36,853 nucleotides of DNA. Origin: Bacteroidota bacterium. GTDB taxonomy: Bacteria > Bacteroidota > Bacteroidia > Flavobacteriales_D > Crocinitomicaceae. Position 1 is the stretch's first letter. Every line of letters begins with the position of its first letter. The notes beneath the pieces are model-generated. The model worked only from the letters and a program-made list of their open reading frames with translations. It made no database searches and was not told the origin of the DNA. Made by a program: the position numbers and the translations under genes. Location: NCBI GenBank assembly GCA_016868915.1, contig VGFL01000014.1:1-36853 (forward strand). Direction: 5' to 3'. This document shows, piece after piece, positions 48 through 36,853 of the stretch.

Positions 48-1637
48 ATGAAAAGAATCTTATTTGTTGTTAGTATGTTGATGGTTGGTTTGCTTAATGC
101 CCAATCCAAAAAGGAACAAATCGAAATTTTAACCAATCGGGTGGATAGTTTGAATCAAGTGGTTAGTTCTGAAAGGAAAATAAACCAAGATAAATCAACT
201 AAAATTTCTGAATTGACCAACACAATAACAAATTTGGAAAGTTCAATATCTCTTCAAGATTCCCTTAACGAATTGATTAGAAATAAATTACCTCTACAAG
301 AGGTGTATTCTTATTCTTTTGACCGCATATATTCTGATGAAATTAAAGAACACCTTAAAAAACTAGTGGTAAAATATCCTACATATTCAGAGAGTGATGA
401 TCGATATTACACAAGAAAGAACACAACGGTGCTAGATACTCGGTTATTTTTAGAGAATAACAAAATGAAAGCGTTATTGATAACGCTTGATAGAATTCCA
501 ATCAATAATGATACAAGACCCCAATTGAATATAAATTTCTTCATTATTGATTGTCAAAACATAAATAAGCCGAGCATTCTATATAATTGGTCAAGTCTTC
601 TTCCAGAATGTATTGTAGATTATGATAGTGATATTATTGATGTTCAATTTACAGATTTAAACAATGACGGAAATGTTGAAGTTTGGGCAGTAAATGAAAA
701 GTTTTGTATGGGTGGTGTTGATTTAACTGAATTGTTAATTTTTAAATATGAAAATGGAAAACATTGTACTTTGGAATCTATGACAAATTCTCATTACATT
801 ATAAATCCTGAAACAAATGCCTCCATGGACGATGATTTTATAAGAAATACCCATGAAAAAGAGCCCTTGATTTTTGATCAGTGTTTTTCTAACTCAGATG
901 CTGTTTTTATAAATTATGCCAAACATTTACGAGAAAAAAATATATATGGTAAAGGAGGATTTAGATTTATTAAAGACGGTTATGATAATCCAAAATTCTG
1001 GTCACGAGAAGATTCTGATAAAGAAAAAATCGTTAAGGAGAATAATACAGGAAAAGTTACCCAAACTGGCTCTTTTAAATCAGTGAAAATTGGAGCCCAA
1101 ACTTGGATGTCAGAAAACCTCAATGTTTCAACCTTTAGAAACGGTGACCCCATACCCGAAGCGAAAACTAATGAAGAATGGGAAAAAGCAGGAGAAAATA
1201 AACAGCCCGCTTGGTGTTATTACGATAATGACCCAGCGAATGGTGCGAAATACGGAAAGTTGTACAATTGGTACGCAGTAAATGATCCTCGAGGTCTCGC
1301 GCCTGTTGGGTATCATGTACCTTCCGATGCTGAATGGACAATACTTACCGGCTTTTTAGGTGGTCAAGATGCTGCCGGAACTAAAATGAAGAGCAAAAGT
1401 GGTTGGGCAGAAAATCGCAATGGAACAAATAGCAGCGGTTTCTCAGGTCTTCCGGGCGGTGGCCGTTACGACGATGGGGCGTTCAGCTACATTGGCACCG
1501 TCGGTGACTGGTGGAGTTCTACGGAGGACGATGCGGGCAGTGCCTGGGGCCGCTACCTGGGTTACGGCGATGGCAGTGTATACGGGAGCTACGGCAATGA
1601 GGAAAATGGGTTCTCTGTCCGTTGCCTCAGGGATTAA
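48..1637 (+). CDS. Secreted coiled-coil protein with C-terminal FISUMP domain
   Basis: An exported protein of 529 residues with a signal peptide (about 1-19, ending LLNAQ). A heptad-rich, probably coiled-coil segment follows at about 20-75. A middle region contains DLNNDGNVEVW at 203-213, which looks like a calcium-loop or FG-GAP-like motif. A FISUMP domain (Fibrobacter succinogenes major paralogous domain) fills about 345-529, with TWMSENLNV, WCYYDND, YGKLYNWYAV, DWWSSTE and the terminal GFSVRC. FISUMP domains are found in surface or secreted proteins of Bacteroidota and Fibrobacteres; their ligand is generally unknown. The last 60 codons are much richer in GC than the rest of the gene and use many NNC codons, as in a hypervariable cassette (separate entry). 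The domain's first 75 residues are nearly identical to those of the paralogue at 3024. The domain call is secure; the function is unknown. Confidence 0.85.
   Translation: MKRILFVVSMLMVGLLNAQSKKEQIEILTNRVDSLNQVVSSERKINQDKSTKISELTNTITNLESSISLQDSLNELIRNKLPLQEVYSYSFDRIYSDEIKEHLKKLVVKYPTYSESDDRYYTRKNTTVLDTRLFLENNKMKALLITLDRIPINNDTRPQLNINFFIIDCQNINKPSILYNWSSLLPECIVDYDSDIIDVQFTDLNNDGNVEVWAVNEKFCMGGVDLTELLIFKYENGKHCTLESMTNSHYIINPETNASMDDDFIRNTHEKEPLIFDQCFSNSDAVFINYAKHLREKNIYGKGGFRFIKDGYDNPKFWSREDSDKEKIVKENNTGKVTQTGSFKSVKIGAQTWMSENLNVSTFRNGDPIPEAKTNEEWEKAGENKQPAWCYYDNDPANGAKYGKLYNWYAVNDPRGLAPVGYHVPSDAEWTILTGFLGGQDAAGTKMKSKSGWAENRNGTNSSGFSGLPGGGRYDDGAFSYIGTVGDWWSSTEDDAGSAWGRYLGYGDGSVYGSYGNEENGFSVRCLRD
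1464..1634 (+). other. Candidate hypervariable (DGR-type) 3' cassette of the FISUMP gene
   Basis: A hand count gives about 110 G/C in 180 bases for 1441-1620, against roughly a third in the N-terminal part of the same gene. Protein residues 501-516 are almost only G, Y, S, D and R. Their codons are mostly NNC or NNT (ggc, tac, agc, gat, cgc), which is what adenine-directed mutagenesis of AAC/AAT template codons would give. The cassette ends in conserved codons for ENGFSVRCLRD, and a hairpin lies just past the stop. These are features of a DGR variable region. No template repeat or reverse transcriptase lies in this window, so the donor would have to be elsewhere. A simple recombined FISUMP cassette is the alternative. 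Confidence 0.4.
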
Positions 1638-1640
1638 TTT

Positions 1641-1662
1641 ACCTGCCTGCCTGCCGGCAGGT
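1641..1662. repeat. GC-rich inverted repeat just after the FISUMP stop codon
   Basis: The stretch begins ACCTGCC (1641-1647) and ends GGCAGGT (1656-1662), which can pair as a 7-bp stem with an 8-base loop. It also contains the perfect 12-bp palindrome CCTGCCGGCAGG at 1650-1661. It starts three bases after the stop codon. It may be a DGR-type target hairpin, a dispersed palindromic repeat, or a transcription terminator; no T-run follows, so the last is least likely. Confidence 0.55.
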
Positions 1663-1687: not shown

Positions 1688-1708
1688 GGTAGAAAGGCTT
1701 GTCAATAT

Positions 1709-1721
1709 GGGGCGAAGCCCC
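1709..1721. repeat. GC hairpin GGGGC-GAA-GCCCC
   Basis: A five-pair all-GC stem with a three-base loop, flanked by AT-rich DNA. It is followed on the plus strand by AAAAATTTA, not a T-run, so it does not look like a classical intrinsic terminator in either direction. It probably belongs to the same repeat or decayed element as the flanking sequences. Confidence 0.45.
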
Positions 1722-1732
1722 AAAAATTTAGC

Positions 1733-1837
1733 TCACCCCACCATCTTCTTCACCTTCGTTATCGTATTCACATGAATACTTAGAATTCGTGAGATTTCAT
1801 ATCCTCTTTTGAACAGTGAACCTGAGTAGGATAATTT
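1733..1837 (-). pseudogene. Decayed helix-turn-helix protein C-terminus
   Basis: Read on the minus strand, the frame is open from 1837 to a stop at 1733-1735 and encodes about 34 residues ending in GYEISRILSIHVNTITKVKK plus MVG. This resembles the recognition part of a helix-turn-helix DNA-binding domain (E-I-S-R-I-L, then V-N-T-I-T-K-V). There is an in-frame stop immediately upstream at 1838-1840 and no start codon. It is best read as the tail of a degraded regulator or transposase-associated gene. The family cannot be named from so short a fragment. Confidence 0.4.
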
Positions 1838-2031: not shown

Positions 2032-2871
2032 ATGATTATGAAGACATTAATTTTTGGTGCCACAATTTTATTAAACACCACTTTGCATGCTCAAGATTCT
2101 CAATTGAAAAACATTAAAGAAGAATCTCAATTTGAGTTCAGTAATGAATTTGACGTGAATTTGTTTCAAAAATACCTAACACAAGAAATGTCAATAGCAT
2201 TTCCTTGGATGGTTGAGGACACTTCGAATAATTATGCTGCAAGAGCAACCTCACAAACAGAAGCTGGATCACCGATGTGTTATGGATCCAAACAAGGTGG
2301 AATGGTTGATATTAAAAATGATGAGCTATTAGAAGCAAAGAGAATAGTAAACAAATACCAAGAATATCTTTACGATAGTCCATATTTTGGAGAAAAAACA
2401 CTCAAGAAATATTACAAAGATTTTTCTGCTGTTGCCACAAAACAAAATGGAGGTCTTATCCGCTACGGGTTATTGGTTGATAACAACATTACCAGGGAAT
2501 CAATTATGGAGGGTTCTAATAAAATTTTGAATGCTGTTTACCAAGATGAAATTGATTTAGTCGATTCTTTAGTTTTGGATTATTATGGTAGTCATATGAA
2601 AATTGACAATGGTTTTGATATTGGGTGTGTTAATTACGTTAAGGAAAAAATAGAATCAAAGGAAATTCCTTGGGCAGATGGGCAGGCTCATTATCATTTT
2701 TCGATCAGTTCAAAAGATGGATTACCACGAAAAGAAACCATAGAAGAAGTCATCAAAGGAAGATTGGAATATATGGATTCATTAGGACTTCCGTTAACCA
2801 TTAGCAGGTATTATATCAAAATTATTATCGAGGGTGAGATGACCTATTTGATTCTGGCTTTGGATAATTAG
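2032..2871 (+). CDS. Secreted protein of unknown function
   Basis: A 279-residue protein starting MIMKTLIFG; the second ATG at 2038 gives a neater signal peptide (MKTLIFGATILLNTTLHAQ), so cleavage after HAQ is likely and the product is exported. No known domain is recognised. The mature part is hydrophilic, contains two cysteines that could pair (in the MCYGSKQGG and DIGCVNY stretches) and ends in a hydrophobic strand-like segment (EGEMTYLILALDN). It sits between two FISUMP genes with large AT-rich spacers on both sides and so is probably transcribed alone. Its location suggests an accessory surface or secreted factor, but that is inference only. Confidence 0.7.
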   Translation: MIMKTLIFGATILLNTTLHAQDSQLKNIKEESQFEFSNEFDVNLFQKYLTQEMSIAFPWMVEDTSNNYAARATSQTEAGSPMCYGSKQGGMVDIKNDELLEAKRIVNKYQEYLYDSPYFGEKTLKKYYKDFSAVATKQNGGLIRYGLLVDNNITRESIMEGSNKILNAVYQDEIDLVDSLVLDYYGSHMKIDNGFDIGCVNYVKEKIESKEIPWADGQAHYHFSISSKDGLPRKETIEEVIKGRLEYMDSLGLPLTISRYYIKIIIEGEMTYLILALDN

Positions 2872-2969
2872 TTATTTACAATCGAAAAAAATGAAAAATG
2901 AGTAGCAAAAATCTAATTATATTTGTAGATAAAATTTCAAGATAATAAATTAGTATAAGAAATAATTAA

Positions 2970-2977
2970 TACTCTTG
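2970..2977 (+). promoter_or_regulatory. Candidate -7 element TACTCTTG upstream of second FISUMP gene
   Basis: TACTCTTGCAGG fits TAnnYTTG, close to the Flavobacterium -7 consensus TAnnTTTG, and lies 46 bases before the ATG at 3024. No TTG at the usual 17-23-base spacing is seen. The 14 bases 2973-2986 recur with one mismatch at 1843-1856. Confidence 0.35.
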
Positions 2978-3023
2978 CAGGGGTTATTTATATTTAATAC
3001 TTTAGATTTTTATTTATCATTTT

Positions 3024-3731
3024 ATGAAACATATTCTCATAATTTTCTCTCTATTTTTATTTGAGATTACCTTCGCTCAACAAACAGGAATAATTACCGA
3101 TTCTCGGGATGGGAGAGAATATAAGACAGTTGTTATAGGTACTCAAACCTGGATGTCTGAGAATCTAAATGTATCAACTTTTAGAAACGGTGATCCAATT
3201 CCTCAGGCTAAATCTGAATTAGAATGGGAAAATGCAGGTAAAAATAAACAACCTGCATGGTGCTATTACGACAACGACCCTAAAAATGGGGCTAAATACG
3301 GTAAACTGTATAACTGGTATGCTGTCGTTGACACACGTAATGTTTGTCCTGTTGGATGGAGAATACCAAATTTAAATGATATAGAAAATTTATTGTTTAA
3401 TGGCAAAAGCAGTGAAGAAGTACAAATGATGAAAGAGTATGAAAGTGAAGGGGCTAGGGAAGGAGGAGATAACTGTGCCAAGTGTTTTTTTGGGGGAATT
3501 GATGTGATTTTGAGTGGTTCTCGCTCAAGTGATGGCAGTTTTTCAGGACTAGAAGATAATTTTAAAATTGATGGTGTTGTGTATTTAGACGGAAAAGCCG
3601 ATGTTTGGCTTATTAGAAATAATTCACCAGGATTATTGAACTATTTCGAGGGAGGTGAAGTCGTAAATACATGGTGGGGGTCAGTCGAATTAGGGTCTGA
3701 AGGCAACTCGATACGTTGTGTCCAAGATTAA
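3024..3731 (+). CDS. Secreted FISUMP-domain protein
   Basis: A 235-residue exported protein with a signal peptide (MKHILIIFSLFLFEITFAQ). Almost all of the mature chain is one FISUMP domain: GTQTWMSENLNVSTFRNGDP at about 39-58, WCYYDNDP, YGKLYNWYAV, then a divergent C-terminal half ending NSIRCVQD. Residues 42-110 nearly match the C-terminal domain of the protein at 48-1637, while the DNA has many synonymous differences, so the duplication is not recent. Unlike that gene, it has no GC-rich cassette: the WWSSTE motif is changed to WWGSVE, and an unusual stretch with CAKC (151-154) is present. Function is unknown; a surface or secreted binding role is the usual guess for the family. Confidence 0.8.
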   Translation: MKHILIIFSLFLFEITFAQQTGIITDSRDGREYKTVVIGTQTWMSENLNVSTFRNGDPIPQAKSELEWENAGKNKQPAWCYYDNDPKNGAKYGKLYNWYAVVDTRNVCPVGWRIPNLNDIENLLFNGKSSEEVQMMKEYESEGAREGGDNCAKCFFGGIDVILSGSRSSDGSFSGLEDNFKIDGVVYLDGKADVWLIRNNSPGLLNYFEGGEVVNTWWGSVELGSEGNSIRCVQD

Positions 3732-4087
3732 AATTTTAAGATTAAATCTCATAGTCAACTCTAAAATTGATTTTAAATAAATTACTCAAGAATTTATTTT
3801 ATAAATGGACATTTTATCAACAAAATAGTAATTGAGTAACTCAGTTTTGACTCCAAAAACTAGGAACTCGTTACCCATTTCTGTCGAATATTTTGGAAAA
3901 TAACTTTTGACTTAAAAGGATTCCTTCAATTTCACCATTATATGTTATCCAGTATAACACTATTATACGTTATCTATCCTTCTTGCGTGTTGAAGATAAA
4001 ATTTGATTTTCTCATTCTACTTCTTTTTAACTAAATATTATTAAACCCGTAATGTTATTTTTATTTATTAGTTGCGTTATCTTGGTT
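3732..4087. other. AT-rich intergenic stretch with no recognisable gene
   Basis: No convincing coding frame is seen on either strand. The only structure noticed is a GTTAT-N5-ATAAC inverted repeat near 3948-3962, followed by a further TATACGTTAT copy of the half-site. A minus-strand frame of about 29 codons in 3880-3975 has no start and no recognisable similarity. Confidence 0.5.
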
Positions 4088-4842: not shown

Positions 4843-6471
4843 TTACCCCATAAATGGATATCTATAATCAGTTGGTGGAACGAATGTTTCCTTGATTGTT
4901 CGAGCAGAAACCCAACGCATCAAGTTCATAGCTGAACCCGCCTTGTCGTTTGTTCCAGACCCACGGGCACCACCAAAGGGTTGTTGTCCGACTACTGCAC
5001 CTGTTGGTTTATCATTGATGTAGAAATTACCAGCAGCGTTTTCCAATTTTTTCGTTGCTACTTGAATTGCATATCGATCGTTTGAAATAATCGAACCTGT
5101 CAATGCATATTCAGAAGTTTTATCTAAAATATCTAAGGTTTGTTCAAACTGATCTTCAGGATAAACATAAATGGTCAATACCGGTCCAAAAATCTCTTCA
5201 CACATTGTTCTAAATGAAGGATTAGTTGTGACAACAGTTGTTGGTTCAATAAAATATCCTTTTGATTTGTCGTAATTTCCGCCTGTGATGATCTCTGCAT
5301 CTGCTTGTGTTTTAATGTAATCAATAAACTCAGTAATTCTGTCAAAGGCTTTTGAATCAATAACTGCATTTATAAAGTTCGATGTATCATCTGGAGATCC
5401 AATTTTAAACGATGAAACTTGTTCTACAAAAATTCTTTTAACTTCAGGCCAAAGATTAGAAGGAACATACGCTCGTGATGCAGCTGAACATTTTTGACCT
5501 TGGAATTCAAAGGCTCCACGTGTTAGGGCAGTTGCTACTTCAGCAGGATTGGCCGATTTATGAACCATTACAAAGTCTTTACCACCTGTTTCCCCGACAA
5601 TTCTTGGGTAGGATTTATACGAATCTATGTTCGAAGCAATGTCTTTCCATAACTTTTTAAAGACTGATGTAGAACCCGTAAAGTGTAACCCGGCGAAATC
5701 TTTATGCTTGAAAATCACGTCTCCTGCAATCTGGCCGCTTACAGTAACCATATTAATTACTCCATCTGGTACACCTGCGGCTTTGAATAACTCCATTATA
5801 ACTTGTGCTGAATAAATTTGAGATTCTGCCGGTTTCCATACAATTACATTACCCATCATTGCAGGTGCTGCACATAAATTGGCAGCTATGGATGTAAAAT
5901 TAAACGGTGTCAAGGCAAATATAAACCCTTCCAAAGGCCTATATTCTAGTCGATTCCACATTCCAGGTAGGGACTCAGGTTGTTCTTTGTAGATTTGAGT
6001 CATGTATTGAACATTGAATCTGAAAAAATCAATAAGTTCACAAGCAGCATCAATTTCAGTTTGGAAAACATTCTTTGATTGGGCCAACATTGTTGCTGCA
6101 TTCATTTTATCTCTGAATGGCCCAGCCAATAAATCTGCTGCCTTTAAAAAAATTGCAGCTCGTTCGTTCCAAGGTAAATTTGCCCACTCGGTTTTTGCTT
6201 TTAAGGCTGCATCGATAGCTTTCTGCACATGTGAAGCATCACCATAGTTGTAATGACCAAGAATTTTGCTGTGTTCGTGTGGAGGGCTTAATTTTCTCTT
6301 TTCATTACTTTTTACCTGTTCACAACCAATATAAAGTGGAATTTCAATCGGATTTTGATTGTACATTTCTTGGTATTTGGCCAGAAGAGAATCTCTCTCT
6401 AAGCTACCATGAGCGTAGGCGCGAACGGGCTCATTTTTAGCGATTGGAACTTGGAAAAATGCGTTTGACAT
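4843..6471 (-). CDS. pruA: L-glutamate gamma-semialdehyde (1-pyrroline-5-carboxylate) dehydrogenase
   Basis: A 542-residue member of the aldehyde dehydrogenase superfamily, the usual length for the stand-alone P5C dehydrogenase. It oxidises glutamate gamma-semialdehyde to glutamate with NAD+, the second step of proline breakdown, in the cytoplasm. Visible motifs are LTPFNFTSIAANL (188-200), the general-base glutamate in VGETGGKD (Glu294), the catalytic cysteine in FQGQKCSAASR (Cys328) and EEIFGPV (425-431). The insertion pattern and the C-terminal QQPFGGARGSGTNDKAG are characteristic of PruA rather than other aldehyde dehydrogenases. No proline dehydrogenase gene is nearby. The gene diverges from xth, with the start codons 156 bases apart, and is followed on the same strand by a 53-residue membrane protein. 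Confidence 0.95.
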   Translation of the reverse strand: MSNAFFQVPIAKNEPVRAYAHGSLERDSLLAKYQEMYNQNPIEIPLYIGCEQVKSNEKRKLSPPHEHSKILGHYNYGDASHVQKAIDAALKAKTEWANLPWNERAAIFLKAADLLAGPFRDKMNAATMLAQSKNVFQTEIDAACELIDFFRFNVQYMTQIYKEQPESLPGMWNRLEYRPLEGFIFALTPFNFTSIAANLCAAPAMMGNVIVWKPAESQIYSAQVIMELFKAAGVPDGVINMVTVSGQIAGDVIFKHKDFAGLHFTGSTSVFKKLWKDIASNIDSYKSYPRIVGETGGKDFVMVHKSANPAEVATALTRGAFEFQGQKCSAASRAYVPSNLWPEVKRIFVEQVSSFKIGSPDDTSNFINAVIDSKAFDRITEFIDYIKTQADAEIITGGNYDKSKGYFIEPTTVVTTNPSFRTMCEEIFGPVLTIYVYPEDQFEQTLDILDKTSEYALTGSIISNDRYAIQVATKKLENAAGNFYINDKPTGAVVGQQPFGGARGSGTNDKAGSAMNLMRWVSARTIKETFVPPTDYRYPFMG

Positions 6472-34397: not shown

Positions 34398-36853
34398 AAT
34401 CCTCTATTTCCAAATTAAACGTACTTTTTAAAAAGTTCGTATGATTTTCATTTATCAACAAATTCGATGATAAAATTAATGAAATTTCATTTAAATTTTC
34501 GATTGAATTTAACCAATTCGTTCTTAAAAGAACATCCATCAGGTCACCATTTATGATATTCGATTTTATTTTACTTTTTCTTTCCTCTGTTTCATTAACT
34601 TTCACTTCTTTTACTAAGCCGCTCAACTTTAATTCGTCAGGTAAATCTAAGTTACGAGAAAATTCAGTCGAAATTAACTTGCCACTCTCTTTGTTGTATT
34701 GGAATAATCCATAATTATTAAAATAGGTTAATTTTTCCTTTGGAAATTCTTCGAAAATTGAGACAACCTCATATTTGATTTTTTCAATTTTTATCTCTTC
34801 TTTTTTGTCATTAAATAGCTTTATTTCATTTTCCACGAATTTCGTCGATTGATTGATTTGAGGGTCGTTTTGTTTTGCCTCCTTGAAAAGTGGATCTTGT
34901 TTCTTTGCGAGTAATTCATTTGCTTGAGCTACTGTGATTCTTTCACCCTGAAAATAGGCAACAACAAATGCATCAGATACACCCGCAATAACAGCTTCAT
35001 TTTTTCTAATTTTTGCGTCGTTAAGGTCATTAAATTTTCCTGTTGCATAGCGGATTTGTTTTTTTTGATTTACTGAAAAAGTAATATCTGGTAAATTTTG
35101 AAATTTTTCCTTTGTATTAATGGGTTTATTGTAAACACCTATTTGAACTGTAAAGAATAAACTCTTTGTATCGATTTCAGCTGAATTTAAATTTGATGAT
35201 TTACTGTCTTCCTCTTTTCTTGCCTCTTGCGTATTCTTACTAATTTCAACTAAAAATTCATTATTACCTTGAGGGATACATTCCCCTCTTGCCTCTAATT
35301 GTCTTGCTTCGCCCAAAGTTAATTTTCTGCCATCGCAATAGGCAACAATAAAAGCATCAGAGAATCCCATTGATTGAATTTGTTTTCTTGCATCAACCGC
35401 ATTTACTGCATTGTTGAAATATCCAACCATATAGACAATTAATCCATTATTTTGTAATTCACCCGAAACCGGAGTAAATTGAGAATAAAAATTGCTTTGA
35501 AGTGGTTTTCTGTACGCACCGACTTGAACCCTGTAAATTAATCCAGACGGTGCTTTGACATTCATTGGAATAGGCCTAGTGTCTTGAGATGTCCTGTTTG
35601 ACTTTGAGCTTATTTGAAACCCCCCTGAGGAAATTATTTCATCTTTTGGTATTTCAACTTTTATCAAGGGTTCTTTTCTGTTAGAAGCTAATATTTTCAT
35701 TTCGTTTGAAATTTGTGGGTTATTAAGTTCAACTTGTTTAATTGAATTTTTAATATCTTTTAATTTCGTATAGGATTTTTGTTGTTCTTTCTCTGATTTT
35801 TCTATTTCTATTATTAAAGTCTCAATATCGACAGAGCCCTTGCGGCTATCCTGAGTTAATACTTTTATATTGATAAGTTCATTTAATTTATTTTGTAGAG
35901 TCAATTTTGTATTTGTTATTTTTTCAAAGTTTTCTTTTTCTTTTTCAAATTCAACTATTTTTTCTACGTACGCTCTGTAACTATCTGTGGATAAAATTTC
36001 TTGCGACTTTTCAGGATCAATTATATTTGGTTTAATTATTAAATCTAGGCTGATATCCTCTCTTACGTGTTTCTTAATTTGCTCTTCAATTTCATTTTTT
36101 TTCTCGGTTAGAAACACAAATTCCGCTTCTTTTAAATCTATTGAATCTTCAATATAATTTAAATTTTTCTTCTTTTTTTCATTCTTTTTTTGAGATTTTA
36201 ATTCTACTAGTTCCTTTTCAATGGCTGCAATTTGGATTTCAATTCTTGACTTATAAAAGTTCAATTTTTCAGCTGGCTGAAACGAGATATTAGGATTTGT
36301 TTTTTTCAATTGCTCAAGGATATCATTTTTCTTCTGTGCAAAGTTTGTAGTTAAATTCTTGAGTTCTTCATTTTGAATTTGAGAAATTTCATTTTGGAGT
36401 TTTGGGATAAATTTACTTTGATTTTCTGTTGAGTTGCTGTTTGAATTTTCAGTTAAATTTTGTTCGTTTTCTTGGTTTGATGAAGAAGAGGAGCTCGCTT
36501 GGTTTTCCTTCTCATTTTGCGAACGAGAGGATTGATTTTCTGTTGAGTTGCTGTTTGAATTTTCAGTTAAATTTTGTTCGTTTTCTTGGTTTGATGAAGA
36601 AGAGGAGCTCGCTTGGTTTTCCTTCTCATTTTGCGAACGAGAGGATTGATTTTCTGTTGAGTTGCTGTTTGAATTTTCAGTTAAATTTTCTTCGTTTTCT
36701 TGGTTTGAGGCAGAGGAGGAGCTCGCTTGGTTTTCCTTCTCATTTTGCGAACGAGAGGATTGATTTTCTGTTGGGTTGATAGTTGAATTTTCAGTTAAAT
36801 TTTGTTCGTTTTCTTGGTTTGAGGCAGAGGAGGAGCTCGCTTGGTTTTCCTTC
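34384..36853 (-). CDS. Large coiled-coil protein with two SPOR-like repeats (partial, 5' end beyond window)
   Basis: The frame is open from the stop at 34384-34386 to the right edge of the window, at least 822 codons; the codon at 36309 is TTG inside the frame, not the start. From N to C: a Ser/Asn/Gln/Glu-rich tandem repeat of 38 residues (36421-36853), a long Lys/Glu-rich coiled coil (about 36420-35700), then two copies of a SPOR-like module at 35290-35541 (YRVQVGAYRKPL to LTLGEARQLEA) and 34906-35160 (FFTVQIGVYNKPI to ITVAQANELLA), and a helical C-terminal tail. Both copies share a DAFxVAY motif. SPOR domains bind peptidoglycan; this version is common in Bacteroidota envelope proteins. Its N-terminal domains are not visible. 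It overlaps clpS by 14 bases. Confidence 0.8.
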   Translation of the reverse strand, partial: KENQASSSSASNQENEQNLTENSTINPTENQSSRSQNEKENQASSSSASNQENEENLTENSNSNSTENQSSRSQNEKENQASSSSSSNQENEQNLTENSNSNSTENQSSRSQNEKENQASSSSSSNQENEQNLTENSNSNSTENQSKFIPKLQNEISQIQNEELKNLTTNFAQKKNDILEQLKKTNPNISFQPAEKLNFYKSRIEIQIAAIEKELVELKSQKKNEKKKKNLNYIEDSIDLKEAEFVFLTEKKNEIEEQIKKHVREDISLDLIIKPNIIDPEKSQEILSTDSYRAYVEKIVEFEKEKENFEKITNTKLTLQNKLNELINIKVLTQDSRKGSVDIETLIIEIEKSEKEQQKSYTKLKDIKNSIKQVELNNPQISNEMKILASNRKEPLIKVEIPKDEIISSGGFQISSKSNRTSQDTRPIPMNVKAPSGLIYRVQVGAYRKPLQSNFYSQFTPVSGELQNNGLIVYMVGYFNNAVNAVDARKQIQSMGFSDAFIVAYCDGRKLTLGEARQLEARGECIPQGNNEFLVEISKNTQEARKEEDSKSSNLNSAEIDTKSLFFTVQIGVYNKPINTKEKFQNLPDITFSVNQKKQIRYATGKFNDLNDAKIRKNEAVIAGVSDAFVVAYFQGERITVAQANELLAKKQDPLFKEAKQNDPQINQSTKFVENEIKLFNDKKEEIKIEKIKYEVVSIFEEFPKEKLTYFNNYGLFQYNKESGKLISTEFSRNLDLPDELKLSGLVKEVKVNETEERKSKIKSNIINGDLMDVLLRTNWLNSIENLNEISLILSSNLLINENHTNFLKSTFNLEIEDYDKK
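36421..36853 (-). repeat. Tandem 114-base in-frame coding repeat
   Basis: Units start at 36421, 36535, 36649 and 36763 (the last is cut by the window end at 91 bases), an exact 114-base period. Each unit encodes 38 residues (QSSRSQNEKE, NQASSSSSSN, QENEQNLTEN, SNSNSTEN, in that order). Units one and two are identical in the bases I compared; three and four differ at a few positions. The repeat is a hydrophilic spacer inside the SPOR-like protein and the period keeps the frame. Near identity points to recent slippage or recombination. Confidence 0.9.

Follow-up and report, generated by a model that had tools for sequence, protein, structure and literature searches.

A FISUMP gene end that very probably is a DGR variable region, with a framework shared by genomes of other genera

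In a 36,853-nucleotide stretch of Bacteroidota DNA (the whole stretch analyzed, hereafter the window), a gene for a FISUMP protein changes sharply in composition toward its 3' end. The locus raises the question of whether this end was written by a DGR and, if so, where the writer is. Our answer is that it is very probably a genuine DGR variable region, written by a DGR that was exchanged among these bacteria and is now lost or lies outside the assembly.

Composition, domains, and 3' flank of the gene

The start of the encoded protein looks signal-like as judged by eye. Residues 346-528 matched Fib_succ_major (FISUMP; PF09603, 160.6 bits against a cut-off of 33.9), and the gene also matched TIGR02145 (116.6 bits; cut-off 41.65), while residues 186-297 gave a weak, sub-threshold match to NF046077. 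PF09603 had seven matches in the genome. A nearby paralogue, previously described as lacking the variable cassette, indeed keeps the domain start, with a Pfam match that stops short of the profile end (Table 1). Relatives found with the protein of this gene came from Flavobacteriales, Lishizhenia, other Bacteroidota MAGs, and one member of Sphingomonadales. An open frame at the window end (36429-36852, - strand) begins with near-identical N/E/S/Q-rich repeats.

Table 1. Features of the window discussed in the text
Feature	Position	Strand	Details
Target gene	48-1637	+	529 aa; begins signal-like, continues with a coiled-coil-like stretch and a middle region, and closes with the FISUMP domain
Probable variable region	1446-1634	+	63-codon block; codon comparison, adenine-register test, framework common to other genomes
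Invariant 3' end, IMH-like 21-mer TCTGTCCGTTGCCTCAGGGAT	1614-1634	+	Present in 13 of 86 genus genomes
Hairpin just 3' of the variable region that may be a homing cruciform	1641-1662	+	Stem and folding test
Second hairpin, TGGGGC-GAA-GCCCCA	1708-1722	+	Also present at C22
Serine recombinase gene 3'-end remnant, convergent with the target gene	1735-1800	-	64-bp match (1735-1798) and related matches
FISUMP paralogue without the variable cassette	3024-3731	+	PF09603, 97.9 bits, profile 1-139 of 187

The preliminary description had reported a jump in GC within the gene, NNC or NNT codons at residues 501-516, conserved GFSVRC codons, and a hairpin with a 7-bp stem. All four were confirmed. Positions 1441-1620 contain 61.1% GC (110 of 180 bases) against 33.5% in 48-1440 and 34.4% in the window overall. 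This is the window's GC peak: the eight most GC-rich 180-bp stretches, taken in 10-bp steps, all start within 1391-1481. Residues 501-516 read GRYLGYGDGSVYGSYG, with C or T at the third base of 13 of 16 codons, and the protein ends in GFSVRCLRD. Within the variable region the first variable codon is 1461-1463, and fixed framework is interleaved with randomised codons. The terminal 21-mer was found at 22 sites in the genus genomes (at most two mismatches), compared with one site for a reversed-pattern control.

The hairpin can pair in two ways: a stem of 7 bp (ACCTGCC/GGCAGGT) closed by a loop of 8 nt, or one of 6 bp closed by a loop of 4 nt. As single-stranded DNA, 1638-1690 gave a folding z of -4.25, and none of 200 shuffles was equally stable. 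A GC-rich stem of at least 6 within 150 bp occurred at 2 of the 19 variable regions examined (window and C22, a sister gene described below), and the loop of the window hairpin is not GRNA. We rejected this hairpin as a conserved homing signal because most of the variable regions compared lack it. Small hairpins with a CGAAG core lay within 150 bp 3' of 6 of the 19 regions, including the window's second hairpin. GAA-loop stems of at least 4 occurred at 7 of 19, against a background frequency of about 0.04 per 150 bp, some of these copies being related by descent.

Beyond the hairpins, recombinase 3'-end remnants lie convergent with, and approximately 0-101 bp past, FISUMP-like gene ends at five of the six distinct sites found (the window, L003 at 1071, L040, L042, and L049). 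The L042 site has assembly gaps, and the FISUMP end there was read from its last residues, VRCVKD, alone. The sixth site, L041, holds a longer relative of the window remnant, with PF00239 Resolvase in two pieces and one in-frame stop. C22 (at L003) sits between 67-nt direct repeats (151-217 and 1104-1170; 88% identical, 953 bp apart) that overlap its remnant. Perhaps FISUMP genes travel together with recombinase genes or insert into them.

A model of the FISUMP domain built from 27 sequences reached a mean pLDDT of 93.5; one built from 7 sequences (49.7) was too poor for use. The top rows returned by VIA-align were a formylglycine-generating enzyme (FGE) and InvE, at a middling Z of 8.2 (rmsd 4.2 over 160 residues and 3.3 over 113, respectively), followed by C-type lectins. 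Foldseek alone gave no match to the model at E 0.001, a sequence search of the domain against the PDB gave none, and neither Mtd nor TvpA was among the 50 structural matches listed, an absence that carries no weight. The domain as modelled appears to resemble C-type-lectin folds. The available text of PMC5006420 assigns Mtd and TvpA to the FGE subclass of this fold, and an FGE as top structural match, though its Z is middling, would fit that assignment.

Adenine register against a congener template

A DNA search revealed two further genes in the same genome that share the end block of the window gene (C14), namely C22 (763-969, +) and C2 (32569-32774, -). Across the three blocks framework codons such as those for WWSS, AW.R.L, and SVRCLRD were fixed, and 18 codons varied in their first two bases but had one common third base. 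C14 and C22 shared their framework and differed at 44 position-1/2 bases over 63 codons. The framework of C2 had diverged, with 18 of 63 third bases differing from C14.

A complete DGR was present in a congener, G069 (contig C43, CAMDLY010000043.1; locus L092), in the order target (406-1569), Avd (1837-2178), template (approximately 2306-2532), and RT (2557-3750). The QSKKEQIEILTNRVDSLN stretch that opens its target also opens the window gene, and the 21-mer end of the window block recurs in its template and targets with at most two mismatches. A search with this RT across 86 genus genomes, including our own, identified an RT in five (G031, G054, G064, G069, and G085). All five carry IGNLTSQ and YVDD; an IGxxxSQ motif is a mark of DGR RTs. 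The best solved relative of the G069 RT was 8ub7 (E 2e-31), which is listed as 'Reverse transcriptase' and which we take to be the Bordetella phage DGR RT; the next matches, group II and other RTs, were no better than 1e-6. The G069 Avd matched PF22296 (58.8 bits; cut-off 40) and scored 60.4 bits against NF033474, below that profile's cut-off of 80.

Mismatches between the G069 template and its adjacent target fell exclusively at adenine once the template ends were trimmed (36 of 36; 37 of 39 untrimmed). Against a remote target on contig C23 (L109), 33 of 34 mismatches were at adenine; a diverged gene on C100 gave 50 of 90. Judged by this pattern, the C23 target, being on another contig, is a case of natural trans writing. 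The adjacent and C23 results together indicate that one DGR in the genus writes FISUMP genes both beside it and elsewhere. GC content was 40.8% in the G069 template and 51.8% in its target block; mutation from an adenine-rich template would also explain the GC rise of the window block.

Other DGRs in the genus have different templates. Those of G064 and G031 (L093 and L094) are associated with a GLTVRCLK end, and that of G054 (L095) is DUF1566-like with an NVRAVR end. A block upstream in G085 (L091, 1-226) was rejected as a ruler because it qualifies cleanly as neither template nor target: its mismatches to the downstream target lie at A, on either side, only in part.

As the window's own template was not found in its assembly, the G069 template served as the ruler. 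Compared with it directly, 47 of 73 mismatches in the window block faced adenine, a proportion diluted by divergence of the two template lineages. We then compared five window-like blocks with each other (C14, C22, G016a, G107, and G154), picked for few third-base differences from C14; C2 was left out for its diverged framework and G016b for its shorter length. Adenine was faced by 62 of 75 variable columns and 13 of 114 invariant ones (P 1e-23), and by 37 of the 40 columns with at least three bases. The remaining 13 variable columns face non-adenine in the G069 template. The odds ratio was 37 in register and at most 4.3 when the template was shifted by 1-9 bases. A shift of -6 still yielded P 7e-6, a residual signal we attribute to the codon periodicity of the templates.

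Other choices of blocks gave the same contrast. Among 13 unselected blocks of the same length, adenine was faced by 72 of 140 variable versus 3 of 49 invariant columns, and in the own-genome comparison that included C2 by 59 of 75 versus 16 of 114. With C14 and C22 alone the counts were 44 of 51 and 31 of 138. Mismatches away from template adenines, which the preliminary description had named as grounds for refutation, occur only to a minor extent: 7 of the 51 columns face another base of the congener template. Of the 25 window codons facing AAC or AAT, 24 have C or T as third base and 24 are altered at position 1 or 2. By this register, differences of the window block from its sister blocks fall mostly on adenine columns of the congener template. 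The original proposal of a DGR variable region in this FISUMP gene is supported by both the positive adenine test and the complete DGR of a congener, whose target is homologous.

The same framework in other genera

Across 240 genomes of the family, the 21-mer (at most one mismatch) occurred in 16, spanning five genera including our own. Six blocks from four genomes and three genera formed a window-like group (C14, C22, two in G016, G107, and G154), G107 and G154 each belonging to a genus other than the window's. Relative to C14, members of this group differed at 4-7 third bases over 58-63 codons, whereas positions 1 and 2 differed at 27-45 bases and the 40 codons directly upstream showed 11-23 third-base differences. 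For G107 and G154 specifically, 4 and 6 of 63 third bases differed from the window block, compared with 21 and 23 in the 40 upstream codons. In an ordinary gene (window 4843-6471), just 222 of 539 third bases were identical between our genome and G016. Near-identical silent sites within the block, alongside diverged flanks and genes, indicate a shared framework within otherwise strongly diverged genomes. Ten other blocks (C2, G180b, G110, G121, G069, G085, G031a, G060, G083, and G064) lay 16-31 third bases from C14 and outside the group; G180a, where the pattern gave no site, was left out of this comparison.

At 114 non-adenine columns C14 departed from the group majority once and the other blocks 2-6 times, and the adenine columns were different in every copy. 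We read the window-like blocks as probably written not long ago from a template lineage common to them all, the main alternative being transfer of written blocks.

Where the writer is was addressed by further searches. The preliminary description had found no RT or template in the window, and the same proved true of the whole assembly. Searches with PF00078, the G069 RT, and a five-RT profile returned no DGR RT, and NF033474 returned no Avd (some DGRs lack Avd). A DNA search for a template repeat returned the three genes and short matches only, and all three copies of the 21-mer in the genome are inside the target genes. The further suggestion in the preliminary description, a DGR that currently works in trans here, is not supported as stated: absence of a DGR RT, which that description had itself named as refuting, holds for this assembly, which is 98.46% complete. 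This assembly comprises 128 contigs, so one may have been missed. An RT profile search of the four genomes of the window-like group likewise found no match (G016 being only 86% complete).

Plasmid and phage collections contained no DNA match, and viral contigs no exact match to the 21-mer. A 16-mer matched seven viral contigs, two of which read VRCLRD in one frame; none of the seven showed the remaining FISUMP framework in the frames printed. A search of viral contigs with the 5' framework identified one contig, whose FISUMP gene ends differently. DGR-like RTs in viral contigs were up to 56% identical (80 of 122 kept), and phage RT relatives of this kind reached 43% at best. Five viral contigs (L285-L289) carry a FISUMP domain; their last 130 residues, as printed, are identical in end sequence and show no template-like framework.

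By the established mechanism of DGRs, an error-prone RT acting with Avd would copy a template RNA rich in adenine, and its cDNA product would replace 1446-1634, giving an apparently exported protein whose lectin-like domain bears new surface residues. The DGR responsible would have passed between these bacteria and written the gene recently relative to species divergence. It would now be lost from this lineage or reside on unassembled or unbinned DNA.

That the block is a frozen product, its DGR lost after writing or the gene having arrived already diversified from a DGR-bearing relative, has a probability just short of even. Within the genus fewer genomes have an RT than have written genes (5 versus 13 of 86), some blocks elsewhere have decayed (that of G017 has in-frame stops), and the recombinase remnants beside FISUMP genes suggest gene mobility. 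Such a history must, however, accommodate the 44 position-1/2 differences between C14 and C22 on one framework, which require two separate writings or two separate imports. Moreover, the 5' flanks do not share the closeness of the framework, so that any import must have brought in the block alone.

A writer that is present and active, with RT, Avd, and template on a plasmid, prophage, or unbinned contig and diversifying the window gene and C22 in trans, is a serious possibility that we place somewhat below even. Trans writing in G069, the fragmented assembly with C14 and C22 near contig starts, the related phage RTs, and the near absence of decay in the window block all speak for it, as do Bacteroides phages with FISUMP/DUF1566 DGR targets (described in accessible text of PMC8143477). 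Against it stand the completeness of the genome and the unsuccessful plasmid, phage, and viral searches. In addition, only four 21-mer carriers in the genus have an RT (G031, G064, G069, and G085), and 9 of 13 have none. Three of these nine, G047, G078, and G083, are 99% complete, which makes missed contigs an improbable excuse for all of them; in G045, another of the nine, the 21-mer lies at a site that fails to read as a FISUMP gene.

An origin without any DGR, through ordinary diversifying selection on lectin-like loops or cassette shuffling by recombination, is highly improbable: viral FISUMP homologues lacking a template-like framework do vary here as well, but selection would not preserve third bases from genus to genus in the very codons that change fastest, amid diverged adjacent silent sites, gene conversion would carry the variable codons along, and neither predicts the match to template adenines.

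Returning to a DGR exchanged among these bacteria, we tentatively suggest, as something more doubtful than probable, an itinerant form. Here, a mobile unit of RT, Avd, and template would cross genera of Flavobacteriales-like bacteria, rewrite resident FISUMP genes in trans to its own template, and leave. Writerless bacteria would then carry fresh lectin-like faces that are homogenised to a template yet individually randomised. Should the writer prove mobile, bacteria could borrow targeted hypermutation for their exported proteins, and its reach would be wider than RT counts suggest. In this genus written genes outnumber writers, and the adenine-register test detects written targets even when the genome has no RT.

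Relation to known DGRs

FISUMP targets and remote targets of DGRs have been published; cross-genus sharing without a writer is the unusual part. A limited open-access search of titles and abstract beginnings, with PMC8934634 also among the literature drawn on, returned nothing on writerless targets shared across genera. A large survey keyed on RTs next to repeats admits, in its available text, to missing remote targets (PMC8144416).

The comparisons that follow refer to the accessible portions of the papers cited. DGRs of the human microbiome, whose targets include nine Fib_succ_major proteins (PMC4159848), and those of Bacteroides uniformis phage (PMC8143477) use the same target domain, with phage RTs 40-42% identical. 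In both, the RT is in the contig or phage of the target, unlike the window gene, which is chromosomal and has no RT. The BPP-1 homing site (PMC3240598) likewise pairs an invariant 3' end with a hairpin directly 3' of the variable region, but the window loop departs from GRNA and its hairpin is not conserved among the regions compared. In the Thiohalocapsa PB-PSB1 DGRs (PMC10907252), targets are also remote from the RT and match the template at non-adenine sites. There, a template elsewhere in the genome or variants of an intact locus are available, whereas no template was found in the window's assembly and the framework of the block extends across genera. The closest system is the G069 DGR, alike in the start of its target, its FISUMP variable region, and a nearly identical 21-mer end. 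It differs in having template, Avd, and RT beside the target, and its template lineage departs at 17 of 114 non-adenine columns where the five window-like blocks agree.
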